From positions 1-24,658 of the IMG/VR virus record IMGVR_UViG_3300027826_000147: a DNA stretch of 24,658 bases; one strand, 5' to 3'. The stretch comes from a virus. This document shows positions 7,069 to 22,230 of the stretch, piece by piece. Numbering within the stretch: position 1 is the first letter of the stretch; the number at the start of each line of letters is the position of its first letter. The notes under the pieces were generated by a model, which was not told the DNA's origin, made no database searches, and saw nothing but the letters and a program-made list of their open reading frames with translations. The translations under genes and the position numbers were made by a program.

Positions 7069-7101
7069 GCAGCGTGCTCCGCCTCGACCCTCTGCCCCGC
7101 A

Positions 7102-7188
7102 GCCCGGGATGAGCGCCATCAAAACCCGGGTCGGCGTTGCAGCGTGGAGCCGGCGGCCCCGGATTTCGCTCCGCTCAATCCGGGCTAC
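7102..7188. repeat. Inverted pair of REP-like palindromes
   Basis: Two units of the same intergenic palindrome face each other. The first is GCCCGGGATGAGCG at 7102-7115, ending in AAACCCGGG at 7122-7130. The second is CCCGGATTTCGCTCCGCTC from 7158, then AATCCGGGCTAC (7177-7188), read in the opposite orientation. In the second unit CCCGGATT (7158-7165) pairs with AATCCGGG (7177-7184). The element type, of the form GTAGCCCGGATGAGCG, is one I know from Bradyrhizobium-like genomes. A related pair occurs at 15836-15962. It lies in the gap before the scaffold gene. Confidence 0.65.
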
Positions 7189-8331: not shown

Positions 8332-8739
8332 TCATCGCCGCGGCGACGACGCGCGCACCGAGCGTTTGAGCGAGGGGCCGGCGCGCTGCGGCTTCGGCGT
8401 CTTCAATGCAGCTTCGAGATCGTGAAGATGCTTGCGGGTCGCGACCAGCGCCTCGGCCTCGATCGCGCGATAGCGTTCGACAAGCCGCTGCCCGAACGGC
8501 GTCAGCGTCGCGCCGCCGCCATGGAGGCCGCCCGGCTGTGCGGCGATCACCGCATCGCGAAAGCAATTGTTCATGTCATCGACCAGAAGCCAGGCGCGGC
8601 GATAAGACATGCCCAGCATACGGCCTGCCTGTGAAATCGACCCGGTCTGGTCGATGGCTTCGAGCAGGCGAACCTTGCCCGGCCCCAAGGCGCGGCCGCT
8701 GCCCAAATCCACTCTCAGCGTCAGTCTTGGCGTATCCAT
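8332..8739 (-). CDS. ModE-type winged helix-turn-helix regulator (DNA-binding domain only)
   Basis: On the minus strand a 135-residue protein begins MDTPRLTLRVDLGSGRALG and contains VRLLEAIDQTGSISQAGR and MLGMSYRRAWLLVDDMN, the characteristic winged helix-turn-helix of the ModE N-terminal domain. It then has a wing region (GGGATLTPFGQRLVERYRA) and a short basic tail. The molybdate-binding TOBE domains of full ModE are absent. The single-domain form is known in bacteria, where it usually lies near molybdate transport genes; none is seen here. I chose the start at 8739 because the family fit begins there; a longer frame from 8796 exists. It is the only confident minus-strand gene, convergent with the scaffold gene and divergent from the capsid gene. 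It may be a moron or a host gene caught in the prophage. Confidence 0.8.
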   Translation of the reverse strand: MDTPRLTLRVDLGSGRALGPGKVRLLEAIDQTGSISQAGRMLGMSYRRAWLLVDDMNNCFRDAVIAAQPGGLHGGGATLTPFGQRLVERYRAIEAEALVATRKHLHDLEAALKTPKPQRAGPSLKRSVRASSPRR

Positions 8740-9108
8740 GATCGCGACGGCCCGAACTCGAACTGGGTCACCATAGCATTTCCGCTGATTTGCCACCCGA
8801 ACGTTTTCCGCAAGACGATCGGATATCCCGTCAGCACCCGTGAGGGCAAGGTTCTCTCGGAACCTTACCCGACCCGGCCGCTACGGCCCCGAACGGCTTG
8901 CATTTCACCCGCCGATGGAAAGCCCTGCGGGGCATGTGCCGGCGCCGGCTTCAGGGAAGCAGGAATTCAGACGTCAGGCGGTCGAACGCATCTCACGCCA
9001 AGACCGCCAACGATTGATTTCGGTCCCCGAAGCCGGCTAACCCCAATCATGCGCCCGCAGACAACCGGAACGGAGGCATCGAAACGATGACCACGAAGGA
9101 CTGGATCA
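8740..9108. promoter_or_regulatory. Divergent intergenic region with a hairpin, no convincing gene
   Basis: This 369-base stretch lies between the start of the ModE-like gene and the capsid gene, so it should hold promoters or leader sequence for one or both. A perfect 7-bp hairpin, AAGGTTC (8848-8854) with GAACCTT (8860-8866), is the clearest structure. GCCGGCGCCGGC near 8940 is palindromic. GGAGG at 9072-9076 lies before an ATG at 9087 that opens only a short overlapping frame. I could not identify definite -35 and -10 boxes. Confidence 0.4.
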
Positions 9109-9942
9109 ATGGCCGATTCGGCGTTCCAGATTCAATTCCGTCAGGAGTTCATCGCCCAGTTCGAGCAGGGCCAGTCATGGCTGCGCAACGTCTGCACGAC
9201 AGAGGCGGTGATCAAGGGCAACCAGGCGATGTTCCTGGTGGCCGGCTCAGGCGGCGCTACCGCCGTGACGCGCGGGCTTAACGGCAACATTCCGCCGCGC
9301 GTCGACAGCCTCACCCAGGTGCCTGCGACTCTCGTGGAATGGCACGACAAGCCGCAGCGCACCGAGTTCAACATCTTCGCGAGTCAGGGCGACGGCCGCC
9401 GCATCATGCAGATGTCGACGGTGAAGGTGATGAACCGCAAGATCGACCAGGACATCCTGGGCGCGCTTTCCGGCGCGTCGAGCAGCCTCGGCCCGGCTCA
9501 GGCAATGACTCTCGCGCTCGCAACGCGGGCGCTGGCGCACCTCGATCTGCAGGACGTCGACACCACCGAGGAAGACAACATGTTCTTCGTCGGTTCGCCC
9601 GCCATGCGGGCCTATCTCATGCAGATCCCGGAATTCCAGAAGGCTGAATATGTCGAGATCAAGCCCCTGGCCGGGCCGGCTCGGCGCTTCCGCCGCTGGG
9701 CCGGCTTCAACTGGATCTTCCATCCGCATGTTCCGAACGTGGGCACCGCCAACGAGCAGTGTTTCGCATTCCATCGCTCGGCTGTCGGTCACGCGGTGAA
9801 CACGGGCGAGATGGATGTCCGCGCCGGCTACAACGAGGAGAACGCCTACTACTGGGCGCGCTCCTCGATCTTCATGGGCTCGGCGCTGCTGCAGAACGCG
9901 GGCGTGGTCGTGGTCAGCCACGACGGCTCGAAATACACCTAA
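9109..9942 (+). CDS. Major capsid protein (podovirus-like)
   Basis: The 277-residue product begins MADSAFQIQFRQEFIAQFEQ and continues with TTEAVIKGNQAMFLVAGSGG, FNIFASQGDGRR and KIDQDILGAL. I recognise these segments from the major capsid protein family of Bcep22-like podoviruses and many alphaproteobacterial prophages. It would form the icosahedral shell. ATG 9109 is preferred because the conserved N-terminus begins exactly there and AAGGA lies at 9093-9097. A better Shine-Dalgarno sequence precedes ATG 9087, but that frame is different and ends at 9281. The gene follows a scaffold gene (interrupted by the ModE-like gene) and precedes a fibre gene. It appears intact. Confidence 0.8.
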   Translation: MADSAFQIQFRQEFIAQFEQGQSWLRNVCTTEAVIKGNQAMFLVAGSGGATAVTRGLNGNIPPRVDSLTQVPATLVEWHDKPQRTEFNIFASQGDGRRIMQMSTVKVMNRKIDQDILGALSGASSSLGPAQAMTLALATRALAHLDLQDVDTTEEDNMFFVGSPAMRAYLMQIPEFQKAEYVEIKPLAGPARRFRRWAGFNWIFHPHVPNVGTANEQCFAFHRSAVGHAVNTGEMDVRAGYNEENAYYWARSSIFMGSALLQNAGVVVVSHDGSKYT

Positions 9943-10121
9943 CGGGAATCAGTAATCGGGAATCAGGGGTCAGGAAGCAGGGTTGGGAAGCGCAGTCCTG
10001 ACTCCTGGCGCCTGACTCCTGACGCCTGAATAACGGGAATCAGTAATCGGGAATCAGGGGTCAGGAAGCGGGGTTGGGAAGCGCAGTCCTGACTCCTGGC
10101 GCCTGATTCCTGACGCCTGAA
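9940..10121. repeat. 91-bp tandem duplication after the capsid gene
   Basis: Two 91-bp units, 9940-10030 and 10031-10121, differ at two positions only (A/G at 9978 or 10069 and C/T at 10016 or 10107, approximately). Each unit is built of imperfect GGGAATCAG, GGGGTCAGGA and CTGACTCCTGGCGCCTGA blocks. The left half (GGTCAGGA) can therefore pair with the right half (TCCTGACTCC) in a long imperfect stem. The first unit includes the capsid gene stop codon TAA. A shorter related block is at 15794-15822. Confidence 0.9.
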
Positions 10122-10137
10122 AATCCGAAGGATTTTC
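10119..10137 (+). promoter_or_regulatory. Hairpin that contains the ribosome binding site of the fibre gene
   Basis: GAAAATCC (10119-10126) pairs perfectly with GGATTTTC (10130-10137) around a GAA loop. The only good Shine-Dalgarno sequence for ATG 10142, AAGGA at 10128-10132, lies partly in the loop and partly in the 3' arm. The stem could therefore limit ribosome access and lower translation of the fibre relative to the capsid protein. This effect is inferred from sequence only. Confidence 0.5.
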
Positions 10138-10141
10138 GAAC

Positions 10142-11470
10142 ATGGCATACACTACCGGCACTCTGACATACATCGCGGGCGGCCCGATCGAGGGCGCGTG
10201 GAAGCTGTGGGAATACACCACGACCGACACGCTGGCCCAGGTGACGGCCGCAGGTTACATCACCGATGCGACCTTCAAGGGCATGAGCCCTGGGGATTTC
10301 GTCATCGTGGTGAACCAGACGAACCCGCAGGGCTATATCCTCCAGGTCCAGAATCTGACGCCCGGCGCCATGAATGTCTCCGGTACGGCGACACTTGCTG
10401 CTCCGGCCGGCGTCGGCGGATCGCAGTTGGCGTTCCCGCGCAACCTCATCGACGGCGGCGACTTCACCACCAATCCGTGGCAGCGCGGCGTGAGCTTCAC
10501 CGGAATCGCCGGCGCCGTCACCTACACGGCAGATCGCTTCTTTGCGGTCGGCGGCGCGTCGTCCTCGATCTCGGTGTCGCAGGTCACCGGCGTCACGGCC
10601 GTATCGGGGTTCACGCAGGCGCTGCAGTTCGGCCGCGCGGCGGCGAACGCCAACACGGCGGCGATCAGCCTCGGCCAGGTCATCGAGACGCTCGACTCCA
10701 TTCGCTGTCAGGGCCAGACCGTCACGCTGTCGTTCTGGGCCCAGGCCGGCGCCAATTGGTCCCCGGCGAACGGCGCTCTCAACGTGCTTCTTGCCAGCGG
10801 GACAGGCGCGAACCAGAGCGCCGCCAGCCTGGCGGCGGGTGCGTGGACGGGCTATACCTCCCTCACGCTGACGCCGCAGCAGAACCTCTCGCCCAACTCT
10901 TCGCCCAATAACGCCGTGCTCACGCCGGGCGCAAACATCGCCCAGCAGATCACGACGAGCTGGCAGCGCTACGTGTTCACGGCATCGGCGCCGGCGAATT
11001 GCACGCAGCTTGGCCTGCTGTTCAACGCCACGCCGGTCGGCACGGCCGGCGCCGCAGACTTCGTGCAGATCATGGGCGTCCAGCTCGAGATCGGCGCGCA
11101 GGCAACTCCGTTCGAGCATCGCGATATCGAATTGGAGTTGGCGATCGCCCAGCGCTATTTCTTCAACATTCCGGAGCCGGCATCAGGTGTCATCGTCGGC
11201 GCCGGCATGGTGGCGGGCGCCGCGTCGGAAATCATCTTCATTCCGCTGCCGGTGCAGATGCGCGCGGCGCCGACCGTGACGGTATCGGCCGGCTCCTTCA
11301 AGTTCAACCTCGCCGGCGCCGCCACCGCGGTCGGAACCTTCGCGCCCGGCGCCACCCACACGCCGAACTACATCAGCGTGACCGGCACCGCCGCGGGCAC
11401 TGCCGGCCAAGGCACGCTGCTGCAGGGCGGCGGCGGCGCCGGATTTATTCAGGCCAGCGCGGATTTCTGA
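10142..11470 (+). CDS. Head or tail fibre protein with carbohydrate-binding-like domain
   Basis: The 442-residue protein has three visible parts. Residues 1-85 form a beta-rich N-terminus (MAYTTGTLTYIAGGPIEGAW). From about residue 101 comes a jelly-roll pattern known from phage fibres: NLIDGGDFTTNPWQRGVSF, YTADRFF, GQTVTLSFWAQAGA, TTSWQRYVF and VQLEIGAQATPFEHR. A final Gly/Ala-rich beta region follows (about 340-442). The jelly-roll type often binds sugars, so the protein probably decorates the capsid or contacts the host surface. Its place directly after the capsid gene and before the tail tube genes favours a head fibre. Its ribosome binding site lies in a hairpin, and it is flanked by repeat elements on both sides. 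Confidence 0.6.
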   Translation: MAYTTGTLTYIAGGPIEGAWKLWEYTTTDTLAQVTAAGYITDATFKGMSPGDFVIVVNQTNPQGYILQVQNLTPGAMNVSGTATLAAPAGVGGSQLAFPRNLIDGGDFTTNPWQRGVSFTGIAGAVTYTADRFFAVGGASSSISVSQVTGVTAVSGFTQALQFGRAAANANTAAISLGQVIETLDSIRCQGQTVTLSFWAQAGANWSPANGALNVLLASGTGANQSAASLAAGAWTGYTSLTLTPQQNLSPNSSPNNAVLTPGANIAQQITTSWQRYVFTASAPANCTQLGLLFNATPVGTAGAADFVQIMGVQLEIGAQATPFEHRDIELELAIAQRYFFNIPEPASGVIVGAGMVAGAASEIIFIPLPVQMRAAPTVTVSAGSFKFNLAGAATAVGTFAPGATHTPNYISVTGTAAGTAGQGTLLQGGGGAGFIQASADF

Positions 11471-11575
11471 AAAACAGAGGACGGAGGACAGGGGGACGGA
11501 TGACGGAAATCCGTCCTCCGGCCTCTGCCTTCCAACTCTGCCGTCTGTCGTCCGCCATCTGTCGTCTGGAGCACC
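11471..11575. repeat. Inverted-repeat element of the GACAGAGGACGGAT family (copy 1)
   Basis: The gap between the fibre and tail tube A genes is filled by ACAGAGGACGGAGGACAG-type sequence followed by its imperfect complement (CTGTCGTCCGCCATCTGTCG). A strong local hairpin joins 11491-11501 with 11509-11519, with one G-U pair. The 3' end of the element supplies GGAG, the ribosome binding site for ATG 11577. Related copies are at 15260-15370 and 19139-19201. Confidence 0.7.
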
Positions 11576-11576
11576 C

Positions 11577-12245
11577 ATGACTACGCAGCTCTTCATCTAC
11601 AACGAGGCGCTCGGCCATCTCGGGGAGCGCCAGCTCGCGAGCTTGTCCGAGCCGCGCGAGCCGCGCCGCGTCCTTGATTCCTACTGGTCGGACGTGGCCG
11701 GCTTCTGCCTGGCGCAAGGCTTGTGGAAGTTCGCAAGGCGCACCGTCCAGATCGACAACAGCTCCACTCTCACACCGCAGTTCGGCTTCAACTATTGCTT
11801 CTCGATCCCGATCGATTGGGTGAGGACGATCCAGGTCTCGACTTCGCCAAATATGGATCCGCCGCTGCTGCAATACAGCGACGAGGCGGGGCTCTGGTAC
11901 GCCAATCTCACGCCGATCTATGTCTCCTATGTTTCGAACGATCCGCTCTACGGGATGAACATCGGGAACTGGCCTGAGCATTTCGCCGACTACGTCTCGC
12001 TTCGCCTGGCGCGGCAGGCGTGCCTGCGCATCACCAACGACAAGGAGTTGAAGGCTGCGCTGCTCAGAGAAGAGGACCGCGCCCGCCGCGTCGCGAAAGC
12101 CGAGGAGGCGATGGATGAGCCGCCCGGCCTGCCGCCTGTTCCGTTCTGGGCGCGCGCCCGGCGCGGCGCATTCGGGCCCGGAGGATTGTGGCTCGGCGGC
12201 GGCGCCGGCGGATCGATCGCAACCGGGCCGCAGGGGAATGACTGA
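11577..12245 (+). CDS. Tail tubular protein A (gp11-like adaptor)
   Basis: This 222-residue protein begins MTTQLFIYNEALGHLGERQL and has FCLAQGLWKFARRT, FSIPIDWVRTIQV, WPEHFADYVSLRLARQACLR and a charged helical part with LREEDRARRVAKAEEAMDEP. This pattern is the T7 gp11/tail tubular A family. The protein forms the ring joining the portal to the nozzle. The last 45 residues are Gly/Pro-rich and look flexible. It overlaps the next gene by one base (TGATG), so the two tail tube genes are translationally coupled. The gene appears complete and in the usual order. Confidence 0.85.
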   Translation: MTTQLFIYNEALGHLGERQLASLSEPREPRRVLDSYWSDVAGFCLAQGLWKFARRTVQIDNSSTLTPQFGFNYCFSIPIDWVRTIQVSTSPNMDPPLLQYSDEAGLWYANLTPIYVSYVSNDPLYGMNIGNWPEHFADYVSLRLARQACLRITNDKELKAALLREEDRARRVAKAEEAMDEPPGLPPVPFWARARRGAFGPGGLWLGGGAGGSIATGPQGND

Positions 12246-15200
12246 TGCGCGCAAACGCAGCGTTATATTCCTTAAATGCCGGCGAGGTCTCCAAGATCGC
12301 GCTCGCGCGCGTCGACGTGGCGAAGCTGCGCATGGCGGCTCAATGTCAGGTCAACTGGCTGCCCTATGTGGTCGGGCCGATGACGTTGCGGCCCGGACTC
12401 TCCTATGTGGGCGAGGTGCTGGGCGACGCGCCGGCGCGGCTCTTGCGTTTCATATTCTCCAAGCTCGATACGGCGTTGATCGAGCTTACCGCCAACAATA
12501 TGCGCGTATGGGTCAACGAGACGCTCGTCAGCCGCGCCGCGGTCGGAACCTCGATCGGCGACCCGTTCTTTTCCGGCCTTGGCAACTGGTCGAATGCCAA
12601 CACCACCGCGGGCGCGAGCGCGACTGTTTCGGGCGGCGTCGCCACGCTCGCCTGCCAGCCGGTTGGCGGGCTCGCGCAAATCCAGCAGACCATCTCGATC
12701 GCTCCTGCTGACCAGGGCAAGGAGCACGCGATCCGCCTCGTCATCACGCAGGGGCCCGTGGTGTTCCGGGTCGGCTCGACGGCCGGCGCGGCGGACCTCA
12801 TCGCGCAGACGACGCTCGACACCGGCGCCCACTCGCTCGCCTTCACGCCGTCGTCCGGCAACGCCGCCATTCAGATCGAATCGACCGACGCGTGGTCGAA
12901 GACGCTGACGCAGTGCTCGATCGAGAGCGCAGGCACCATGGTGCTGCCGACGCCGTGGAGCGTGAATGACCTTCCCAATATCCGCTACGACCAGTCCGGC
13001 GACATCATCTTCATCGCCTGCTACGGCCAGCAGCAGCAGAAGATCGAGCGCCGCTCGCTGCACTCGTGGTCGGTCGTTCAATTCTACAGCAACAATGGGC
13101 CGTTCCAGTCGACGCCCGGAATCGTCGCCAACTTCACGCCGGGCAATTACCACGGCAACACCACGCTGACATCGGACCGGCCGTGGTTTCAGGCAGGCCA
13201 CGTCGGCTGCCTGTTTCGCCTGTTCACCAACGGCCAGTTCAACCAGACCATCCTGGGCAACCAGAATGCCTTCACGCCGCCGGTCCGGGTCACGGGAGTA
13301 GGCGTCGGCGTCGGTAATCCGCCGGTGCCGCAGTCGAACCAGGGGCGCAACTATACGTGGACGATAAGCGGCACATGGTCCGGCGTGCTGACCATGCAGC
13401 GCAGCTTTGATTCCGCCGCGTCGGGCTATGTCGATACGGTCGCCGCCACCGGACCCAACGGCGGCCCGTCGTCCGGCGGCGCGCTCACCGCAAACGGCGC
13501 CCTGCAATCGGTGACCGGAAGCGCCGGCGCTCCCACCGACCTCGATAACGCCATCTGCTGGGAGCGCATCGGCTTCAAGGCTGGGCAGTATACGTCGGGG
13601 AGCGCCGTCGTATCGTCGAACTATTCAGGCGGCGGCGGCTTCGGCATCTGCCGGGTGACGGGCTATGTCTCGCCGACCCAGGTCAACATCGAAGTTCTTT
13701 CCCCGTTCACCTCGCTTGCCGCCACCACGGACTGGGTGGAGGGCGATTGGTCGGGCGTCATCGGCTATCCGACGTCGGTCGCCTTTCACGAGGGGCGCCT
13801 GTGCTGGTTCGGCCGCGACCAGGCCTGGCTGTCGGCCTCGGACGACTTCACCAACTATGCCGACATCAATCTGGACGGCACCTCGACCGGAGACGGCGGC
13901 GCCATCAATGTTGCGCTGGGCTCGGGGCCGGTCGACACCATCTCGTGGGGGCTCTCCCTCACCCGGCTGATGATCGGCCGCGAGCAGTCGATCGCCTCGG
14001 CGCGCTCATCGAACTTCGACCAGCCGGTGACGCCGTCGCAGATCGTGATCCGCGACTGCTCCGACCAGGGCGCGCAGCGGCTGCCCGCCATCAAGGCGGG
14101 CAAGCGCGGCATCTTCGTGCAGCAATCGGGGCGGCGCGTCTACGAGCTGGCGTTCAGCGCCCAGGAGATGGATTACGACGACCGCGATCTCACGAGGCTC
14201 AACCTCGACATCGGCAAGGCCGGCTTCACCGACATCGACAAGGCGACCCAGCCCGACAAGATGATCCTCCTGCCGCGCGGCGACGGCCAGGCAGCGTGCC
14301 TGTTGTATGACGTGAAGGACGAGGTCGAGGCGTGGTGGCGGCTGCAGACCCTCGGCGTCATCGAGAATGCCGCGGTGCTTCCTTCCCCAGGCTCTCCGGC
14401 GGGCTCCGAAGCCAGCGGTATCGAGGACCTCGTTTATTTCGTGGTGCGGCGCACGATCAACGGGGTGACGCGGCGCTTCATCGAGCGGCTCGCCCCGCGC
14501 GACAATTGCGTGGGCGGCGCCATCAACCAGCAGCTCGACTGCCACGTGGTCTATCGAGGCGCGCCGGTCTCGGCCATTACGCTATCGCATCTGCCGAACA
14601 CCCCCGTTTCGGTTTGGGCGGACGGCCAGGCGATCGGGTCCGCCACGACGAGTGCGTCCGGCGTGCTGACATTGCCCGACGGGCAGGCCCATTCCAATAT
14701 CGTGGCCGGCCTCGCCGGCGCCGTCATCTCGAATACCGCCGCGTCCCCAACCGGCACGCTCATGGTCGGCACGCAATATAACGGGTATCCGGCAGAGGTC
14801 TTCGCCGATATCGGCGCAACCGGCGAGCCGGTTCATATCGGTTCCATCGTGGTCGCAGACGGCGCCATCACGCTTCCCAACGGGCAGACTGCGCTCACCG
14901 TTGTCGCGTGCCTCGGCTATGTGGCGCCGTTCATGTCGGCGAAACTTGCCTATGCGGCGCAATTGGGGTCCGCGCTGACGCAACGCAAGCGGATCGATCA
15001 TGTCGGGCTCGTGCTGTACGACACCAACTCCCAGGGCATCGCGTTCGGGCAGCGGTTCGACGCGCTCGACAATCTGCCGCTCTGCGAGGCGGGGGCGGCG
15101 ACGCCCGCGGCGACGACCTGGAGCGAGTACGACGAGCCCATGATCGAGGTGCCGGGCAGTTGGCAGACCGACGCACGGCTGTGTCTGCTCGCGCAAGCCC

Positions 15201-15259
15201 CGAACCCCTGCACTGTCGGGAGCGTGGTGATCGGACTGACCACGAATGAGCGGGGATGA
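12245..15259 (+). CDS. Tail tubular protein B (gp12-like nozzle)
   Basis: At 1004 residues this is the largest gene. The start MRANAALYSLNAGEVSKIAL and the segments VNWLPYVVGPMTLRPGLSYV, FEGRLCWFG-like AFHEGRLCWFGRDQAWLSA and GIFVQQSGRRVYELAFS identify the tail tubular B/gp12 nozzle family. It forms the end of the short tail through which DNA passes. It is longer than T7 gp12 (about 790 residues). A Gly/Thr-rich beta region (about 115-230) and Gly-rich segments near 400-440 may account for inserted domains. The start overlaps the stop of tail tubular A, with AGGGGAA just upstream. No break in frame was seen. Confidence 0.85.
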   Translation: MRANAALYSLNAGEVSKIALARVDVAKLRMAAQCQVNWLPYVVGPMTLRPGLSYVGEVLGDAPARLLRFIFSKLDTALIELTANNMRVWVNETLVSRAAVGTSIGDPFFSGLGNWSNANTTAGASATVSGGVATLACQPVGGLAQIQQTISIAPADQGKEHAIRLVITQGPVVFRVGSTAGAADLIAQTTLDTGAHSLAFTPSSGNAAIQIESTDAWSKTLTQCSIESAGTMVLPTPWSVNDLPNIRYDQSGDIIFIACYGQQQQKIERRSLHSWSVVQFYSNNGPFQSTPGIVANFTPGNYHGNTTLTSDRPWFQAGHVGCLFRLFTNGQFNQTILGNQNAFTPPVRVTGVGVGVGNPPVPQSNQGRNYTWTISGTWSGVLTMQRSFDSAASGYVDTVAATGPNGGPSSGGALTANGALQSVTGSAGAPTDLDNAICWERIGFKAGQYTSGSAVVSSNYSGGGGFGICRVTGYVSPTQVNIEVLSPFTSLAATTDWVEGDWSGVIGYPTSVAFHEGRLCWFGRDQAWLSASDDFTNYADINLDGTSTGDGGAINVALGSGPVDTISWGLSLTRLMIGREQSIASARSSNFDQPVTPSQIVIRDCSDQGAQRLPAIKAGKRGIFVQQSGRRVYELAFSAQEMDYDDRDLTRLNLDIGKAGFTDIDKATQPDKMILLPRGDGQAACLLYDVKDEVEAWWRLQTLGVIENAAVLPSPGSPAGSEASGIEDLVYFVVRRTINGVTRRFIERLAPRDNCVGGAINQQLDCHVVYRGAPVSAITLSHLPNTPVSVWADGQAIGSATTSASGVLTLPDGQAHSNIVAGLAGAVISNTAASPTGTLMVGTQYNGYPAEVFADIGATGEPVHIGSIVVADGAITLPNGQTALTVVACLGYVAPFMSAKLAYAAQLGSALTQRKRIDHVGLVLYDTNSQGIAFGQRFDALDNLPLCEAGAATPAATTWSEYDEPMIEVPGSWQTDARLCLLAQAPNPCTVGSVVIGLTTNERG

Positions 15260-15370
15260 CCGACGGCAGACGACCGAGGACGGATGAAAGATATCCGAAC
15301 TTCGGGGCGAGCATGCCGCCCGTCTCCACCCTCCGATCCGTCATCTGTCGTTGGTCCTGCGTCCTCTGAA
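15260..15370. repeat. Inverted-repeat element of the GACAGAGGACGGAT family (copy 2)
   Basis: The left arm ACGACCGAGGACGGAT (15270-15285) and right arm ATCCGTCATCTGTCGT (15336-15351) are complementary at about 13 of 16 positions, with a spacer of some 50 bases. The element fills nearly all of the gap between tail tubular B and the GNAT-like gene and leaves the latter without a clear ribosome binding site. Confidence 0.65.
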
Positions 15371-15372
15371 CA

Positions 15373-15849
15373 ATGCCGAAAGTCACGCTGCGGCCGACGA
15401 TTGCCGCCGATCTGGCTCATGTCATTGGCGAACCCTTGCCTTACCGCATCCGCGCCATCACGGCCCTCGTCGATGACCGCGTGATCGGCATCGGCGGGAT
15501 CGCGTTTCCGCCTTACGGGCCGGCAATCGCGTTCGTGCAGCTTGCGCCCCCGTCGGGACAGGACGCCGATGGCGATGCCGGGCGGACCGCGCCAGGCGTT
15601 CCTGAGGCGAGGCGTTATCCGGTTGCATTTCACCGCGCCGGCCTGACGGCGATGGAGATGATTCGGAAGTCTCCCATCACACAAGTGGTGGCGACCGCAG
15701 ATGCCGCCAGCGAGGTGGCGGTGCGCTGGTTGAAGCGGCTGGGCTTCCAGCCGGCGCAGCGCCAGCCGATCGCCGGCAAGATCCTTTTCGTGTGGAATCG
15801 GGAGTCAGGAGTTCGGGGTCAATCCTGCAGCCCGTGCAGCCCGGATTGA
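15373..15849 (+). CDS. GNAT-like internal virion protein (gp13-type)
   Basis: The 158-residue protein starts MPKVTLRPTIAADLAHVIGE and has VDDRVIGIGGIAFPPYG, YPVAFHRAGLTAMEMIRKSP and SEVAVRWLKRLGFQPAQ. This matches the shortened acetyltransferase-like fold often found after the tail tube genes in podoviruses (T7 gp13 type). The usual acetyl-CoA loop is not clear, so catalysis is doubtful. The final residues (NRESGVRGQSCSPCSPD) are encoded by repeat sequence (a TCAGGAGTC block and a REP-like unit holding the stop codon), so the natural C-terminus was probably shorter or different. There is no good ribosome binding site before ATG 15373, where a repeat element abuts the start. Confidence 0.6.
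   Translation: MPKVTLRPTIAADLAHVIGEPLPYRIRAITALVDDRVIGIGGIAFPPYGPAIAFVQLAPPSGQDADGDAGRTAPGVPEARRYPVAFHRAGLTAMEMIRKSPITQVVATADAASEVAVRWLKRLGFQPAQRQPIAGKILFVWNRESGVRGQSCSPCSPD
15794..15822. repeat. Short block related to the 91-bp duplication
   Basis: GGAATCGGGAGTCAGGAG and the following GGGGTC are the same word types that build the 91-bp units at 9940-10121. The block lies within the 3' end of the GNAT-like gene and is translated. Confidence 0.5.
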
Positions 15850-15962
15850 ACCACCGGGTCCGGTCTTAGGCCGGCCCGATGATAAACGCCGCGAAATCCG
15901 GGGCCAGCCGCGCCGCGCGTCACTGCCGTTCCCGGGTTTCGTTTCCGCTCAACCCGGGCTAC
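15836..15962. repeat. Second inverted pair of REP-like palindromes
   Basis: One unit runs from GCAGCCCGGATTGA (15836-15849) to GCGAAATCCGGGG (15891-15903). A second, in opposite orientation, starts with CCCGGGTTTCGTTTCC at 15931 and ends AACCCGGGCTAC at 15962. The arrangement matches the pair at 7102-7188. The stop codon of the GNAT-like gene (15847-15849) lies inside the first unit. Confidence 0.6.
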
Positions 15963-15987
15963 GACGCCTAAAACGGAGAGGATGCCG

Positions 15988-16992
15988 ATGGCGACCATCG
16001 ATCGTCGTGGCGCGACCGTATCTGCGGCCGATCCGCCGATTGCGACCAATCCGAACCCGGATCTTGCCTGGAAGGCGCCGGCGCGCGTCGCGACGACGGG
16101 CAGCAATATCACATTGTCCGGGCTGCAGACGATCGACGGCGCAGCGCTCAATGCCGGCGACCGCGTGCTGGTGAAGGACCAGACGGACGCCGCCACCAAT
16201 GGGCTCTACAATGCGCAGACCGGGCCGTGGACGCGCACGATCGATGCGCAGAACAATTCGCAATGGACGCAGGGCACCCAGATCGCCGTCACCCAGGGCG
16301 CGGCGAATGCCGGGGTCGTCTTCCGGCTCACCGCGGCCAATCCGGTCGTGCTCGGCGTGTCCGCGCTCACATGGGCCGGCGACGCGAGCAGCACGATCGT
16401 CGGCGACCGTGATTATGCGATCCTGGGGACCGACCGGGTGCTCAACGGGGGCCTACTGACCGCCCCGCGCACGTGGACGCTCCCGCCAGTCGCGTCGGTC
16501 AATCAGGGGCACCGTATCCTCATCGCCACCGGCGGCATCTCTCCCGTCAATACGCTGACCATCGCGACCCAAGGCGCCGATCAGATATGGTGGCCGACCG
16601 GGGCCGCCGTGAGCGATGTCACCATCCCGTTTCCTAATGTCCTCATGGAGCTGCTTGCGCTCACGAACAGCTCCTCCAGCCTTTGGGTCGTGACGGCCTT
16701 CTACGTCTACAGTGTCCCGGTGATCCTGACCGGCACCTCCGGTCTTCTCTCTTCGGCCTCGCAGATCATCAATGCGAGCGGCACATTCACCCTGACGTTG
16801 CCTCCCGCCGCTCAATTCGGCGGCCAGTGGATTTGGATCAAGTCCATCTCGCCGCAAGCCATTAACTCGGCAAGCAGCAACGTAGTGCCGCTCGGATCAT
16901 CGACACCCGGCACAGCGATCTTGAATGCGACCGGCAAGTTCGCGGCCCTCCAGTCTGACAATGCGAACTGGCAGATCATGTTCGCGGGCTGA
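15988..16992 (+). CDS. Tail fibre-like protein with common phage fibre module
   Basis: The 334-residue protein carries, at about residues 35-130, a module common in prophage tail proteins: LQTIDGAALNAGDRVLVKDQ, TNGLYNAQTGPWTRT and NAGVVFRL. The same module occurs in the 19489-21066 gene. The rest is Ser/Thr/Gly-rich beta structure, with two repeats of a 'TLPP' turn (WTLPPVASVNQGHRI and LTLPPAAQFGGQWIW) suggesting two similar domains. I chose ATG 15988 over 15982 because GGAGAGG at 15975-15981 has correct spacing only for 15988. The start context ATGCCGATGGCG is repeated before the gene at 19222. It is probably part of the tail appendage that binds the host. Confidence 0.6.
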   Translation: MATIDRRGATVSAADPPIATNPNPDLAWKAPARVATTGSNITLSGLQTIDGAALNAGDRVLVKDQTDAATNGLYNAQTGPWTRTIDAQNNSQWTQGTQIAVTQGAANAGVVFRLTAANPVVLGVSALTWAGDASSTIVGDRDYAILGTDRVLNGGLLTAPRTWTLPPVASVNQGHRILIATGGISPVNTLTIATQGADQIWWPTGAAVSDVTIPFPNVLMELLALTNSSSSLWVVTAFYVYSVPVILTGTSGLLSSASQIINASGTFTLTLPPAAQFGGQWIWIKSISPQAINSASSNVVPLGSSTPGTAILNATGKFAALQSDNANWQIMFAG

Positions 16993-17026
16993 TTTTTCAA
17001 CGCTGGCGACGGCGGCGATTGGCATT

Positions 17027-17068
17027 GCGGCTGTGAGCCTTCATGGGCGGCGTAAGGGCCGCAGCCGC
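17027..17068 (+). other. Hairpin between fibre genes
   Basis: GCGGCTG (17027-17033) pairs with CAGCCGC (17062-17068), and inside it CCTT can pair with AAGG, giving an interrupted stem. It is in the 130-base gap between two fibre genes. There is no T-run, so its role is uncertain. Confidence 0.35.
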
Positions 17069-17122
17069 CAGACCGCCTACCCTCGATCCTGATCCCCGTC
17101 ACTCGACATCGGAGACAATGAG

Positions 17123-17707
17123 ATGGCGCTATTTCCTCTGAGCTCCGCCTTTGCGGCGCAGCAGCACATCGGGCAGGTGGGCGGCCTCAGCAATGTGTGG
17201 CAGCCGGCCGACTCTGCGCTGACGCGGCCTGCGAACACCACCGCTTATGCGGCGAACCAGGCGATCGGGTCGGGCACGACCGCGCTGTTCAAGTTCTCGG
17301 GCTTCTTCCGGGCCAATGGCGGGTCCGCCCTGCTGACCGGGCTGCGCCTCGTTGCGTCGCTCTCAGGCATTGCAGCCTCCAACATGGGGGCGATCCGCGC
17401 CCACCTGTTCAATGCGGCGCCGTCGATCGCCGCCGGATTGGTTGACCAGGGCGCGTTCAACACGCTGTTGGCCGACGACCTGCTCAAGCTCGGGACGGTC
17501 GATTTCTCGACCTGGAATATCGGCGGCGGCGGCTCGAACCTGATCGAAAGCTATGGCGCGCCGGCGCTCTCGCCGCTGCCGATCATCGGCGCGCAGACGC
17601 CCGCGCCGGGCGCGCGCGACCTCTACATGATCCTGGTTGCGACCGGCGCATTCACGCCGGCCTCAGGCCAGACGATCCAGGGCTATGCCTCGGCGACGGT
17701 GGACTAA
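17123..17707 (+). CDS. Phage tail-associated protein of unknown function
   Basis: A 194-residue protein with no signal peptide or membrane helix and a beta-rich, Ala/Gly-rich composition: FRANGGSALLTGLRLVASLS, HLFNAAPSIAAGLVDQGAF, and YMILVATGAFTPASGQTI near the end. The alternation suggests a beta-sandwich like those in tail accessory proteins. No specific family was recognised. GGAG upstream supports ATG 17123. The next gene begins three bases after its stop, so the two are probably translated together, and the product may assemble with the LamG-like protein. Confidence 0.55.
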   Translation: MALFPLSSAFAAQQHIGQVGGLSNVWQPADSALTRPANTTAYAANQAIGSGTTALFKFSGFFRANGGSALLTGLRLVASLSGIAASNMGAIRAHLFNAAPSIAAGLVDQGAFNTLLADDLLKLGTVDFSTWNIGGGGSNLIESYGAPALSPLPIIGAQTPAPGARDLYMILVATGAFTPASGQTIQGYASATVD

Positions 17708-17710
17708 GCC

Positions 17711-19138
17711 ATGGCGCTCGCTGAAATCCCAGCGCGGAGATTGCTGCTGCTCGGCGGCAGACGAGGCTTCGCCGGAGGGGTCGACCCCAACTGGTGGAAG
17801 CGCTTCCAGTTCGGCGGCGTGCTGCCGACCGTGGTGATGGATTTTGCCAACGGGCTCTACTACGACGGCGCGCAGACCAGCACCGACCCCGCCGCCTTCG
17901 TCAGCAACGGCACGGTGACGGCCGGCTCGGGCCTCCTCTGCAACGCCGCCAACATCACCGCGAAGGGAGCGCTCCTCGCCGCCTTCCAGGGCGCGAGCGG
18001 CTACAACGCGCAGATCGCAACCTTCGGCGCGCCGGCGGCGGCCGGAGCAAATGTCGGGATGCTCGCTGACGATCATACCAACGGCATTTTCATGAACGCC
18101 GCCAGCGGCGGGTTTCTGACCTGGAACCAGGCCGCAGGCTCTGCGCTGCAAGACAGCGCCGGCTTCGACTGGACCAAGACCTGCTGGGGCAGCCTGTCGA
18201 CGAATGGCTCTACCTTCCGCCGCCTTTCCTCCCTTGGCCCCGGCGCCGGGACAACCGGCGCGACCGGCAATCATCTGGCCGATGCGAACGGCTACGCGAG
18301 CCCGGCAACAATTTTCCTCGGCTCGTGGAACTCCGGCTTCACCTTCCAGGGCTTCATCGCCCAGCTCGCCGTGTGCAAGAACAACCCGCTCGCCGACCGC
18401 GTCATTCCGCCCGCTGCCTTTACCGGCACGAACGGCTGGTGGTGGAACGGCGATGCGGCAAATTCCAGGATCACCTACGGCAACGTCCTTGCCTACGAGT
18501 ACACCCAGCCATGGACGCTCGTTGCCGCCATCTGCTGCTTCGCCGCCGCGGGCGGAGGACATGCCGGCGTCTCCGGCATCGTCTTCACCAACGTCACCGG
18601 CCCCGGCAACGCGGCGCAGCCAGGCTACGAGTTCTGGCCCGACGGCAACGGCCATATGACCATCCGCGTCATCCATGTGGCGAACACCGCCTGGATCGAC
18701 GTGAACGGCGGCACGTTCATTGCGGACGGCAAATGGCGCGTCGTGGCGGCCTCCTACGACGGCTCCGGCCGCGCGGCTGGCTGCAAAATCTACGTTGACG
18801 GCATGCCGGAAACCATCACCGTCAATGCCGATAGCCTCGGCGGCGGGTCGATCATCTCGACCGATGGCGCAAACCCGAACGGCTATGTGATCGGCAACCA
18901 GCAGGGCCAGAGCTTCGGCAACATCGGCGCGATCGGCCTGTTTCGGCAGTTCAACCGGGTTTTATCGCAATCCGAGATTCAGAAATACAAAATCAACATG
19001 ACGTTGCCGCCGATCGATTCATCGTGCGTGCTGGCGCCGGCGTTGAATGAAGGCGGATCCAGCACGACGACAGCCGATCTCTCGGCGAGCGGCCTGACCG
19101 GCACGCTCAACTCGGCAAGCTGCTGGCTGAGAGGATGA
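17711..19138 (+). CDS. LamG-like (concanavalin A-like) tail fibre or receptor-binding protein
   Basis: The 475-residue protein starts with a basic segment (ALAEIPARRLLLLGGRR), then a Gly/Ala-rich beta region. From about residue 255 to 430 it has a LamG/concanavalin A-like pattern: QPWTLVAAICCF, GYEFWPDGNGHMTIRV, GKWRVVAASYDGSGR, CKIYVDGMPE and IGLFRQFNRVLSQSEIQKY. The last is the typical closing strand and helix of a LamG domain ('...LS..EI...'). Such domains bind glycans, so a role in host recognition is likely. It starts three bases after the previous stop without its own clear ribosome binding site. A 14-bp perfect inverted repeat follows the stop. Confidence 0.65.
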   Translation: MALAEIPARRLLLLGGRRGFAGGVDPNWWKRFQFGGVLPTVVMDFANGLYYDGAQTSTDPAAFVSNGTVTAGSGLLCNAANITAKGALLAAFQGASGYNAQIATFGAPAAAGANVGMLADDHTNGIFMNAASGGFLTWNQAAGSALQDSAGFDWTKTCWGSLSTNGSTFRRLSSLGPGAGTTGATGNHLADANGYASPATIFLGSWNSGFTFQGFIAQLAVCKNNPLADRVIPPAAFTGTNGWWWNGDAANSRITYGNVLAYEYTQPWTLVAAICCFAAAGGGHAGVSGIVFTNVTGPGNAAQPGYEFWPDGNGHMTIRVIHVANTAWIDVNGGTFIADGKWRVVAASYDGSGRAAGCKIYVDGMPETITVNADSLGGGSIISTDGANPNGYVIGNQQGQSFGNIGAIGLFRQFNRVLSQSEIQKYKINMTLPPIDSSCVLAPALNEGGSSTTTADLSASGLTGTLNSASCWLRG

Positions 19139-19201
19139 CGACAGAGGACAGAGGACAGAGGACGGATGGAGGCGCGAGGCTCTGGCAATCCGTCCTCTGT
19201 C
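19139..19201. repeat. Inverted-repeat element of the GACAGAGGACGGAT family (copy 3)
   Basis: GACAGAGGACGGAT (19154-19167) and ATCCGTCCTCTGTC (19188-19201) form a perfect 14-bp stem with a 20-base loop. The left side has two more GACAGAG-like copies in tandem (19140-19153). It fills the gap between the LamG-like gene and the next small gene and is the cleanest copy of this family. Confidence 0.85.
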
Positions 19202-19221
19202 GTCCGCTAAGGAGAATGCCG

Positions 19222-19485
19222 ATGGCGCGAACCGTCAAACTGATCGAAGGCGAGATGTTTTCATCGAAGCGCGTGCTCATCGAGGTGCTGTCGCTGCCGC
19301 CGCAGGGCTGCAACATCGCCGAGATGCGCAAGCGCATGCGGGTGATGGATGCGATCGAGGCGGCACAGGGGGATGAGATGACCTTGGAGGATGCGGACTA
19401 CGAGCTGCTCAAGGCGGTGTTTCATTCAAACCAGTTCCGCCTGGCGCACAAGGATCTGCTGGCGATTGCCGACACGCTGACCTGA
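19222..19485 (+). CDS. Small phage protein of unknown function
   Basis: I chose ATG 19222 because GGAG at 19211-19214 is spaced seven bases from it. A longer in-frame start at 19135 would translate the repeat element and is unlikely. The 87-residue product (MARTVKLIEGEMFSSKRVLI, then CNIAEMRKRMRVMDAI and MTLEDADYELLKAVF) is small, charged and helical, with no membrane segment. I do not recognise the family. It could be a tail assembly helper or a small regulator of the fibre genes. The next gene starts three bases after its stop. Confidence 0.55.
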   Translation: MARTVKLIEGEMFSSKRVLIEVLSLPPQGCNIAEMRKRMRVMDAIEAAQGDEMTLEDADYELLKAVFHSNQFRLAHKDLLAIADTLT

Positions 19486-19488
19486 CCC

Positions 19489-21066
19489 ATGTCGACGATC
19501 AATCTTGCGGGCGGCAACACGCTGCTCTCCTCGGGCTCGTTTCCGCCCGTGCGCGCAGCCTCGACCGGCGCGCCGCTCAACCCGGCGATCGGCGGGCTCC
19601 TTGTGGTCGACGGCGTGCAGCTTGCGGCGGGCGACCGCGTGCTGGTGAAGGACGAGGCGAACGCGGTCAACAACGGCATCTATGCGGCGAGCACGGGCCC
19701 GTGGACGCGCACCAGCGACGCCAATACCAACACGCAGTTCTTCTCCGGGATGGCGGTGACGGTCGCGCTCGGCAATGTCAATGCCGGGCAGACCTTCATC
19801 TGCACCTGCACGGACGATCCTGTCGTCGTGGGAACGTCGCTCATCACCTTCGCCTCGCAGCAGGCGGTGGCGACCGCGCAGCAGTCCGCGACTTCGACGA
19901 CATCGCAGACGATCGGCACCGGCTCAAAGACCTGGGCGGTGCAGTCCGGCAAGGCGTTCCAGGCCGGGCAATGGGTGCTGGTCGAGGAGACCAGCAACAG
20001 CGCCAACCAGATGCTGGGCCAAATCTCAAGCTACAGCGGCGGCTCGCTGACCGTAAATGTAACCGCGACGGGCGGCGCGGGCACATATTCCGACTGGACG
20101 ATCGTGCTCACCAACAGCCCGGCCGCGGCGGGCTATCAGCCGCCGGTGGGCACGGGTAACGTCACGGGGCCGGGCTCCTCGACCGCGGGCCACGTTGCGA
20201 CCTTCGCTGACGCGACCGGGAAGGTGCTTGCCGATGGGGGGGCGGTCTTCAACGTCCCCTACAGCGGAGGGCTATTCACCAACGGTTCACCAGCAGCGAC
20301 GATCACGAGACTGGACAGGCTGCTCGTCAGCACGGCGACCATCAACAGCGGCGACAACCCCGTCACCACGAAAGATTGGCTTGAGGGGCTGATCCCGCAT
20401 ACGACCTCAAATGCCCAGCTGGCCTCCATCAGCCCGCTAAGCGCCATCGGGGTGCTCGGCGGCTCACGAACCAGCGATGTGGCGACCGGCCAGGGGTCCA
20501 TCGCGGTCGCCGGGTTTCAGAACAACAACAGTTCGGCCGGCGGCCAAAACGGCTGGGCGCTCTACGGTGAGGCGTGGCACAACAATACTGCTGCGGTCTT
20601 TACGACCGCAATGGAACTGGACATCGTCAACAAGCAAAGCCTCGTCCAGATTGATCCGTACAATGTCAATCCCGGTCATCAATGCACGGCCATGTGGATT
20701 GGGAGCGGCGGGAGCAGAGCGGGAGCACAGATCGCATCTGCGGCTGCGGTATTTATCGCCAACGGCGCGACCTTCGACAAGGGCATCATCTTTCAATCAG
20801 GTTCGCTGACCGCATCGAACGGCCTCGCCCTCGCTCTGCCGGCCGGGTACCAGATTGGATGGTATAGTTCCGCCGGCGTCCTCGGCCCGACGATACAGGG
20901 CAATGCGGGCGGCATGGCGCTGGGCCGCGTCGCCACCGTCGGAAACGGCACCGTCGGACCAATGACCATGGGGTCAGCGGGACCGCCAGGATCAAACGCT
21001 GGCGTTCAGGAGTGGATGGTGATCACCAATCCTTTTGGCGTCACTAGGTACATTCCATGTTTCTAA
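19489..21066 (+). CDS. Tail fibre protein sharing the fibre module of the 15988 gene
   Basis: The 525-residue protein begins MSTINLAGGNTLLSSGSFPP and has the shared module at about residues 35-125: LLVVDGVQLAAGDRVLVKDE, NNGIYAASTGPWTRTSD and NAGQTFICTCTDDPVVVG. A second beta region follows (130-220), then GKVLADGGAVFNV and a long Gly/Asn/Ser-rich C-terminal domain ending in EWMVITNPFGVTRYIPCF. The arrangement (N-terminal attachment module, variable C-terminus) fits a tail fibre whose C-terminal part contacts the host. It starts three bases after the previous stop. It appears intact. Confidence 0.6.
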   Translation: MSTINLAGGNTLLSSGSFPPVRAASTGAPLNPAIGGLLVVDGVQLAAGDRVLVKDEANAVNNGIYAASTGPWTRTSDANTNTQFFSGMAVTVALGNVNAGQTFICTCTDDPVVVGTSLITFASQQAVATAQQSATSTTSQTIGTGSKTWAVQSGKAFQAGQWVLVEETSNSANQMLGQISSYSGGSLTVNVTATGGAGTYSDWTIVLTNSPAAAGYQPPVGTGNVTGPGSSTAGHVATFADATGKVLADGGAVFNVPYSGGLFTNGSPAATITRLDRLLVSTATINSGDNPVTTKDWLEGLIPHTTSNAQLASISPLSAIGVLGGSRTSDVATGQGSIAVAGFQNNNSSAGGQNGWALYGEAWHNNTAAVFTTAMELDIVNKQSLVQIDPYNVNPGHQCTAMWIGSGGSRAGAQIASAAAVFIANGATFDKGIIFQSGSLTASNGLALALPAGYQIGWYSSAGVLGPTIQGNAGGMALGRVATVGNGTVGPMTMGSAGPPGSNAGVQEWMVITNPFGVTRYIPCF

Positions 21067-21650: not shown

Positions 21651-21687
21651 CCTCCCCCGCAAGCGGGCGAGGTTTGGGGAGGGGGCG
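21651..21687. repeat. GC-rich palindrome inserted in the endolysin frame (family CCCCCGCAAGCGGGGG, copy 1)
   Basis: CCTCCCCCGC (21651-21660) and GCGGGCGAGG (21663-21672) are complementary except at one position, with an AA loop. They are followed by TTTGGGGAGG, which can pair with upstream CCTCCC. It is translated as PSPASGRGLGRG within the inserted segment of the endolysin. Confidence 0.7.
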
Positions 21688-21727
21688 CGATCCAGAAATG
21701 ACGGCGTCGCCGTCGGGCTCGGCCGCC

Positions 21728-21787
21728 TCCCCCTCCCCTGACCCCTCCCCTGACCCCTCCCCTGACCCCTCCCCCTCCCCTGACCCG
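21728..21787 (+). repeat. 12-bp tandem repeat encoding DPSP
   Basis: CCCTGACCCCTC repeats with a period of 12 bp three times, then an 18-bp variant. It is in frame and encodes repeated Asp-Pro-Ser-Pro. It lies between two GC-rich palindromes inside the endolysin gene. Confidence 0.8.
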
Positions 21788-21842
21788 TCCCCCGCAAGCG
21801 GGGGAGGCGAAGGGGGGCTGGCCACCGCAAGCAGGGGAGGGG
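21788..21842. repeat. GC-rich palindromes in the endolysin frame (copies 2 and 3)
   Basis: TCCCCCGC (21788-21795) pairs perfectly with GCGGGGGA (21798-21805) across an AA loop. A second, decayed copy, CCACCGCAAGCAGGGGAGG, follows at about 21822-21840. All are translated in frame (SPASGGGEGG, TASRGG). Confidence 0.7.
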
Positions 21843-21853
21843 AAATGGTGGGC

Positions 21854-21890
21854 GAGCCCTTCGACAAAGGCTCAGGACCCGCGCTCCCAG
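21854..21890. repeat. CCTTCGACAAGG palindrome, copy in endolysin insert
   Basis: GAGCCCTT (21854-21861) and AAAGGCTC (21866-21873) pair with one mismatch around CGAC. The tail CAGGACCCGCGCTCCCAGG follows (21872-21890). It encodes EPFDKGSGPALPG in frame. The same core and tail recur in opposite orientation at 22131-22167 and 22876-22912. Confidence 0.75.
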
Positions 21891-22130
21891 GCTGGACCTG
21901 GCCCCGCGCCTGCTACGAGGGCGAGGCTTTCAACGGGTTCGGGCCGCGCGCGCACGGCCGCCGCACCAGCTATCTGTGGAGCTGGACCAACATTTACGAC
22001 GGCGGCAAGTACGTCGCCGACGGCCGCTGGGACCCGGATGCGCGCGATGCGCAATGCGGCATGGCGCCGATGATGGCGGCGCTGGCGCGGCTGGACAGCA
22101 CGCTTGCGCTCGGGGATGCGCCGCCGTGGG

Positions 22131-22230
22131 CCGGGAGCGCAGAGCCTGAGCCCTTGTCGAAGGGCTCGGCTGCCCCCGTCCTGCGCTCCCCTGCATCCTT
22201 CGACAAGGGCTCATCCTTCGACAAGGGCTC
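22131..22230. repeat. CCTTCGACAAGG palindromes, cluster in the endolysin linker
   Basis: GAGCCCTT (22148-22155) and AAGGGCTC (22160-22167) form a perfect 8-bp stem with a GTCG loop, preceded by GGGAGCGCAGAGCCTGA, the reverse-complement tail of the element at 21854. A perfect 18-bp tandem duplication, ATCCTTCGACAAGGGCTC, follows at 22195-22212 and 22213-22230. All read in frame (EPLSKGS, then SFDKGS twice). Confidence 0.8.

Follow-up and report, generated by a model that had tools for sequence, protein, structure and literature searches.

Paired arrays of degenerate heptamers have already been described in Xanthomonas and Geobacter. In Xanthomonas, heptamer arrays of the (GGGANTN)n/GGGAATC type, 70 and 75 of which are paired face to face, are mostly intergenic, lie closest to the end of the upstream gene, most commonly have four units and are given no known role (PMC4692102). 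For Geobacter metallireducens, heptamer and octamer pairs on opposite strands (16 sequences) were proposed, without experiment, as possible IHF/HU sites (PMC2700814). TAACTGA arrays near gene starts have been reported for Beggiatoaceae and across distant phyla (PMC4679880). Here, we describe inverted repeats in the window, i.e., the whole 24,658-nucleotide stretch of IMG/VR virus record IMGVR_UViG_3300027826_000147, where three of them (elements 1-3, Table 1) occupy three tail-gene gaps (11471-11576, 15260-15372 and 19139-19221). With a probability of about 0.7, these elements represent dispersed, low-copy spreading inserts that are largely selfish and tolerated at gene ends and in protein loops, and not a tail-specific control signal.

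Both the opposed tandem arrays of degenerate 7-nt units and the purine-rich-first order of the Xanthomonas/Geobacter-type pairs are present here. The Xanthomonas pairs share degenerate heptamers, opposed arrays and the purine-rich arm in first place with the elements of the window, but differ in having another unit, approximately 185 copies per genome and G-quadruplex-forming arrays (PMC4692102); in-frame insertion into conserved genes, prophages and other phyla are not described for the paired form in the available parts of that paper. The Geobacter unit, MTYCTGA, differs from the GACRGAN unit of elements 1-3, although its reverse is a TCAG-type heptamer like that of a fourth element of the window at 9943-10121 (PMC2700814). 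Thus, elements 1-3 match neither GGGANTN nor MTYCTGA, whereas the TCAGNNN element at 9943-10121 is of MTYCTGA form. The reverse strand of TAACTGA, TCAGTTA, also fits TCAGNNN, but the Beggiatoaceae repeats almost always form a single direct array of one exact unit, in contrast to the inverted pairs found here (PMC4679880). The open-access literature searched yielded no paper dealing with GACRGAN pairs or with paired heptamers in housekeeping genes.

One architecture and polarity across phyla

An initial annotation of the window had proposed three inverted elements with common arm sequences, one of them a perfect 14-bp stem. Their presence in the tail-gene gaps was borne out by a search with GACAGAGGACGGAT at no more than 3 mismatches, which gave 13 matches in the window; 100 shuffles averaged 2.21 matches, and none exceeded 6. 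Eleven of the 13 lie inside the three gaps, and the two strays (13767 and 20654) have 3 mismatches each. The perfect stem exists in element 3, where 19154-19167 pairs with 19188-19201 across 20 nt. The elements do form one family, but the exact arms named in the annotation occur only in the third element. A single 14-bp stem was rejected as the repeat unit, which is 7 bp: the arrangement is a left array (GACRGAN)n, a loop of any sequence and a right array (NTCYGTC)n, with imperfect outer units. Across 100 elements, taken from viral contigs and from genome contigs, both arrays begin at the C of CRGA and position 7 may be any base; position 4 is A or G, as demanded by the search pattern. Among 30 imperfect interior units, G5 was kept in 30 and C3 in 28, and position 7 took all four bases.

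Period and order of the arms are strict. In viral contigs, 19 of which carry copies, the inverted pattern was found in 19 stretches at period 7 compared with 0, 0 and 1 at periods 6, 8 and 9, and no stretch had the pyrimidine arm first compared with 19 in the purine-rich-first order. The second family, built of TCAGNNN, was found in at least 120 stretches in the TCAG-first order versus 8 in the swapped order. The lengths of the two arms are uncorrelated (GACRGAN, rho 0.18, P 0.12; TCAGNNN, rho 0.05, P 0.56), and four units are the commonest arm length of the TCAGNNN family (71/132 and 65/132). Adjacent units within an arm are alike at both variable positions at a frequency of 0.245, compared with 0.142 for random units (all 14 elements with 6-nt loops were dropped from this test and from the test of pairing against other elements); neighbours are mostly unlike at these positions, and positions 3 and 5 stay constant.

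A fourth gap of the window (9940-10121) follows the major head gene. Its element shares the architecture of elements 1-3 but is built of the unit TCAGNNN, and its tandem copies are 98% identical over 91 bp. In locus L190 (2601-2711), the element is single, although the proteins of both phages are 100% identical; the doubling in the window may be either a very recent duplication or an assembly effect.

The contig of the window is part of a 6,074,248-base genome in 353 contigs. The genome-wide map proposed in the initial annotation yielded 30 matches of the tandem unit pattern on 11 contigs, and none of the reversed control pattern. In GC and tetranucleotide composition, the element loci fall inside the range seen elsewhere in the genome, on which ground mis-binned contigs were rejected as the source of these copies. 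The GACRGAN class appears to be low-copy and unevenly placed because an unbiased period scan of 920,801 bases (contigs C1-C74) found no period-7 inverted arrays; the scan gives no positive support. Among 61 genomes (this one and 60 kin), the distribution is sporadic: GACRGAN elements occur in 8 and TCAGNNN elements in 6, with both families in 4 (overlap P 0.0018). Further afield, the GACRGAN pattern was found in at least 117 stretches of genome contigs, and the titles of the 80 loci listed point to about ten phyla, including Planctomycetota, Verrucomicrobia-type bacteria, Nitrospinota, Bacteroidetes, Desulfobacterales, Anaerolineae, Berkelbacteria and Proteobacteria.

Thirteen of the 80 listed loci are from Streptomyces and have short loops, mostly TTCAAT/ATTGAA. 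They represent a different and more uniform palindrome and were set aside from the placement, open-frame, loop, duplication, arm and permutation tests. In ten Streptomyces loci (L066, L067, L092, L095, L108, L112, L117, L119, L125 and L128), the palindrome is GACAGATGACAGAT-TTCAAT-ATCTGTCATCTGTC (or has the loop ATTGAA), and its loop is conserved, unlike that of the variable-loop heptamer class. Two further observations concern the range of such repeats. At least 14 TCAGNNN inverted elements are present in one 34-kb contig classed as viral (IMGVR_UViG_3300045936_000120; L363, L380 and L381). In the relative G046, the reversed control patterns score (52/10 and 5/12 matches), suggesting another heptamer family with a GACT core.

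Copies within genes and turnover at junctions

Placement only at gene ends, as the initial annotation had it, holds in the window but not in the genome. On contig C90 of the same genome, an element lies in frame within nrdJ, the gene of the B12-dependent ribonucleotide reductase (NF005736, 2253.9 bits). The NrdJ loop between conserved flanking motifs has 48 residues in this genome and 6-7 in 23 of 30 loci; of the others, five have 12-19 residues, and in one the stretch is longer but broken and includes a run of N. In two of the five (L286 and L292), the same loop holds the palindrome CTCCCCCGCxAGCGGGGGAG, and a further palindrome lies in the broken loop (L287). Five more elements lie inside family matches, namely those of polyprenyl synthase (L075), RecB (L076), DNA polymerase I (PolA, L094), cysteinyl-tRNA synthetase (CysRS, L109) and porphobilinogen synthase (HemB, L123). 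Only a family match spanning the element was counted as in-gene (these five and NrdJ), and four elements near or between domains (L061, L088, L101 and L130) were left uncounted. By open frame of a set size alone, 36 of 87 elements lie within some frame, most of these frames being only putative genes. The arms of in-frame elements are translated in different frames.

Rickettsia palindromic elements (RPEs) form families of about 150 bp with a conserved peptide. They are palindromic inserts kept in frame in unrelated genes (PMC10969869). The in-frame insertions in conserved genes (NrdJ, RecB, PolA, CysRS, HemB and polyprenyl synthase) are RPE-like, but the heptamer build, the unshared loops, the arms read in different frames and the lack of a conserved family sequence or peptide are unlike RPEs.

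Outside genes, the elements cluster just behind stop codons. In the window, element 1 directly follows the stop of the fibre-like gene (TGA 11468-11470) and ends 7 bp before the ATG at 11577 of a tail protein gene. Element 2 is flush with the stop of the tail protein B gene (TGA 15257-15259) and ends in CTCTGA, 3 bp before the ATG at 15373, and element 3 starts 1 bp after the stop of the LamG-like gene (TGA 19136-19138). In the prophage, the first heptamer unit often touches or overlaps the upstream stop codon. In 55 of 78 GACRGAN and 82 of 132 TCAGNNN elements, an arm falls between -12 and 50 bp relative to the stop codon of a long open frame. At 4-10 bp from the stop, arms are enriched 24-fold and 22-fold, respectively, compared with random positions of the same loci. 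This count measures 156 arms from the first perfect unit; another stop-distance count (174 arms, orthologues unreduced, outer unit included) uses different arm starts, and its distance bins differ accordingly. In the 156-arm stop-distance, loop, target-duplication, arm-pair and permutation tests, orthologous phage junction copies were cut to one per junction, which removed nine loci.

Occupants of the same junction change among relatives. Four junctions were compared using 23 fetched loci with relatives of the tail B protein, together with the window and L051. Among 19 rows for the head-fibre junction, 2 have GACRGAN elements, 7 have TCAGNNN elements (one with another palindrome in addition), 3 have other palindromes, 5 have only 12-16 bp and 2 have 73 bp with no recognised repeat. 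The fibre-tail A junction (15 rows aligned at both ends) holds GACRGAN elements in 10 rows, other palindromes in 3 and unclear sequences in 2; since three of the GACRGAN rows are identical phage, the merged count is 8 of 13. Following tail B, 15 rows include 3 with GACRGAN elements (two from the same phage), 1 with a TCAG-like stretch and a palindrome and 2 with other palindromes, the others being short, overlapping or unclear. The LamG-like gene at the junction of element 3 was found only in an identical phage (L047/L175). In L176, another palindrome is inserted within the right arm of a heptamer element. More distant phage relatives have no insert at these junctions. Because the same junctions hold various repeats or none, they are sites that accept inserts of several kinds. 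In the chromosome, an element lies at a junction of two genes that we take to be mdh and sucC; among 30 loci fetched for the site before sucC, 29 were readable, and this genome alone carries the element. The repeat CCCTCCCCCGCAAGCGGGGGAGG, found among the late genes of the window, recurs in relatives, where it occupies nrdJ loops and phage junctions.

Possible origins of the inserts

Taken together with the family's occurrence in the host and in unrelated genomes, the junctions that are empty or otherwise filled in relatives and the in-frame nrdJ copy favour the second of two suggestions made in the initial annotation, a mobile repeat that tolerates such sites. The class consists of two opposed degenerate-heptamer arrays around a unique loop, with the purine-rich arm always first. 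Such inserts may spread in bacterial chromosomes and resident prophages and would persist where they are least harmful, just behind stop codons and in frame in protein loops, so that the prophage elements would mark insert-tolerant junctions. Effects on the mRNA, such as a stem or a block to ribosomes or nucleases, would be incidental. The architecture, the polarity, the range over phyla, the copies inside genes and the changing occupants of junctions are observed here; our inference is that the inserts are selfish or neutral, their placement being determined by purifying selection.

Several points weigh against this reading. The behaviour is unlike that of a normal transposon: among 76 elements, target-site duplications of at least 4 bp number 8 (5.0 in shuffles) and those of at least 5 bp number 4 (1.6 in shuffles), with no clear excess; only 3 of 2346 loop pairs are alike; and a common run of at least 3 units was seen in 1 of 56 arm pairs within genomes. 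The strict conservation of unit positions 3 and 5 could instead reflect selection for a binding site. Element 1 is kept at the same junction in 8 distinct phages, for which function is possible as well as descent. Among the compared loci, no close relative has an exact empty site, and the insertion borders are approximate. Moreover, most comparison rows derive from metagenome-assembled genomes (MAGs).

As to how such inserts arise, the elements might be scars of break repair: each 3' end of the break would be lengthened with copies of one degenerate heptamer, and a random loop would then join the two. For example, a telomerase-like or reverse-transcriptase-like enzyme could add six copied bases and one uncopied base per round. 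This single process would account for the fixed arm order, the independence of the arms in unit order and length, the fixed motif with a free seventh base, the unique loops, the patchy occurrence among phyla and the lack of clear target duplications. Independent arms combined with strict polarity would be expected if both break ends received the same repeat. We regard this origin as tentative and, on balance, unlikely.

Somewhat less probable still is an RNA role, in which the hairpins would be under selection as 3'-end signals (to stabilise, process or terminate the mRNA) and would set the dose of head and tail proteins; this is close to the mRNA processing signals balancing expression of the initial annotation. 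Both families have arms close behind stop codons, and in E. coli, translation is affected by repetitive extragenic palindromic sequences (REPs) located within 15 nt of a stop codon (cited in PMC5082802). Moreover, all folds are stronger than those of shuffled sequences, with z values of -2.4, -2.8 and -3.7 for the three GACRGAN elements (-2.39 for element 2 and -3.65 for element 3) and -5.0 for the TCAGNNN element, but this is what any inverted repeat would show. The variable positions of facing units match no better than after permutation within the element, either in 78 GACRGAN elements (0.457 vs 0.427, P 0.067) or in 132 TCAGNNN elements (0.476 vs 0.468, P 0.19), and selection for arm pairing was rejected on this ground. 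Aligned from the outer end, the TCAGNNN arms show a small effect (0.493 vs 0.474, P 0.012); in the test against other elements, the innermost pair alone reached P 0.02 and the next three pairs gave nothing; and the fold of element 2, which includes some matching outer units, may be an exception. None of the 6 terminator-like matches (stem and T run) in 9000-19600 lies within an element, the total being at shuffle level (5.7), and Rfam gave no match in the window at gathering score. Since register-specific complementarity, a terminator and an Rfam match are all absent, the heptamer unit, and not pairing, looks conserved. The junctions of relatives manage with 12-16 bp, and copies lie within coding sequences, an occurrence inside genes that the initial annotation itself had named as speaking against processing signals. 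Processing of mRNA or balancing of tail-gene expression by the elements is thus not supported. The annotation had further suggested that an element sometimes supplies the ribosome binding site: elements 1 and 3 are indeed bordered on the right by GGAG and AAGGAG, but these motifs are flanking or at most overlap the last bases of the element, and element 2 has none.

A non-autonomous transposon of a known sort, either a miniature inverted-repeat transposable element (MITE) or a REP moved by a REP-associated tyrosine transposase (RAYT, with a Y1 transposase domain), appears improbable. Like such elements, the inserts are palindromic, dispersed, mostly intergenic and present in unrelated replicons, and they resemble REPs and bacterial interspersed mosaic elements (BIMEs) in lying close behind stop codons. 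To our knowledge, REPs contain no heptamer arrays, and the elements here are without the GTAG/CGTC-tagged single stem of REPs. Y1_Tnp was found in only 3 of the 10 genomes bearing either heptamer family (of 61), namely G000 (a partial match), G012 and G032, several of the assemblies being incomplete; RAYT genes do not follow the distribution of the elements, and a RAYT link, though conceivable, is not supported. A MITE would be at odds with the unshared loops, the lack of a clear excess of target duplications and the lack of near-identical copies within a genome. L126 and L137, from one MAG, have an identical four-unit left arm and share the first two right units, a likeness that would suit transposition, but their loops differ.

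We consider it just as improbable that the heptamers are half-sites in arrays bound by a host DNA- or RNA-binding protein that sets the polarity. The conserved unit positions given above with a free position 7, the strict polarity and the preference for four units in TCAGNNN arms would fit such a role, as would the IHF/HU-type sites proposed for the Geobacter pairs (PMC2700814). The low copy number, the sporadic presence in kin, the copies in unrelated coding sequences and the same placement of several different unit sequences argue against it.

Among orthologous elements of nine phage loci, the unit order is largely preserved and the differences are scattered; therefore, most unit-to-unit variety predates those splits. 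An ordinary slippage microsatellite, multiplied by local replication slippage and mirrored by hairpin template switching, is the least probable origin: long bacterial repeats are enriched in heptamers (Mrazek et al. 2007, as cited in PMC4679880 and PMC4692102), the orthologues L039 and L053 differ by a two-unit duplication and neighbouring units are more alike than random ones, but neighbours mostly differ at the variable positions with positions 3 and 5 fixed, the arms are not complementary in register and the motif occurs at unrelated sites, which local slippage would not give.

Neighbouring features and implications

The genes of the window (Table 1) are those of a podovirus-like prophage, with a major head protein, a fibre, two tail proteins and a LamG-like protein. 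The name tubular B for the gene at 12245..15259 comes from the initial annotation, and its database match is to the phrog_376 tail protein. On the minus strand at 8332-8796, between the scaffold-like and head genes, an open frame encodes what we take, by eye, to be a ModE/LysR-type regulator.

Table 1. Heptamer elements of the window and the genes that flank them
Feature	Coordinates	Strand	Description
Element 1	11474..11569		GACRGAN heptamer arms, left from 11474, right to 11569
Element 2	15260..15369		GACRGAN arms, loop of about 50 nt
Element 3	19140..19207		(GACRGAN)4, 20-nt loop, right arm
Related element with another heptamer (TCAGNNN / NNNCTGA), tandemly duplicated	9943..10121		Immediately follows the stop codon (TAA 9940-9942) of the major head gene
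Major head protein gene, upstream of the TCAGNNN element	9109..9942	+	phrog_3437, E 4.2e-57
Tail fibre-like gene, upstream of element 1	10142..11470	+	phrog_4492 tail fiber protein, E 1.7e-33
Tail protein gene (tubular A-like), downstream of element 1	11577..12245	+	phrog_394, E 1.7e-34; phrog_9239 tail tubular protein, E 2.6e-9
Tail protein gene (tubular B-like), upstream of element 2	12245..15259	+	phrog_376 tail protein, E 1.8e-127
Small gene, downstream of element 2	15373..15849	+	No family match
LamG-like gene, upstream of element 3	17711..19138	+	PF13385 Laminin_G_3, E 2.6e-10
Small gene, downstream of element 3	19222..19485	+	No family match

Other repeats are present in the same prophage. 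A palindromic repeat of the CCCGGATTTCGCTCCGCTCAATCCGGG type has inverted copies at 7098-7188 and 15891-15963, and further repeats (CCCTCCCCCGCAAGCGGGGGAGG and CTTCGACAAGGGCTC) lie at 21651-21807, 21850-22230 and 22870-22980, inside or beside late genes. In addition, a 144-bp stretch is repeated with 71% identity in two genes (16119-16262 and 19593-19736), the N-terminal parts of which match the same phage families, suggesting a duplicated virion domain.

Paired heptamer repeats have earlier been reported lineage by lineage, with regulatory guesses. The present data link those reports through one polarity, one period, several units and a shared location behind stop codons, and extend the link to many bacterial phyla, their prophages and in-frame insertion in housekeeping proteins. 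The origin of paired heptamers thereby becomes a testable question, and the findings caution against calling junction hairpins of this type dedicated terminators or expression balancers.

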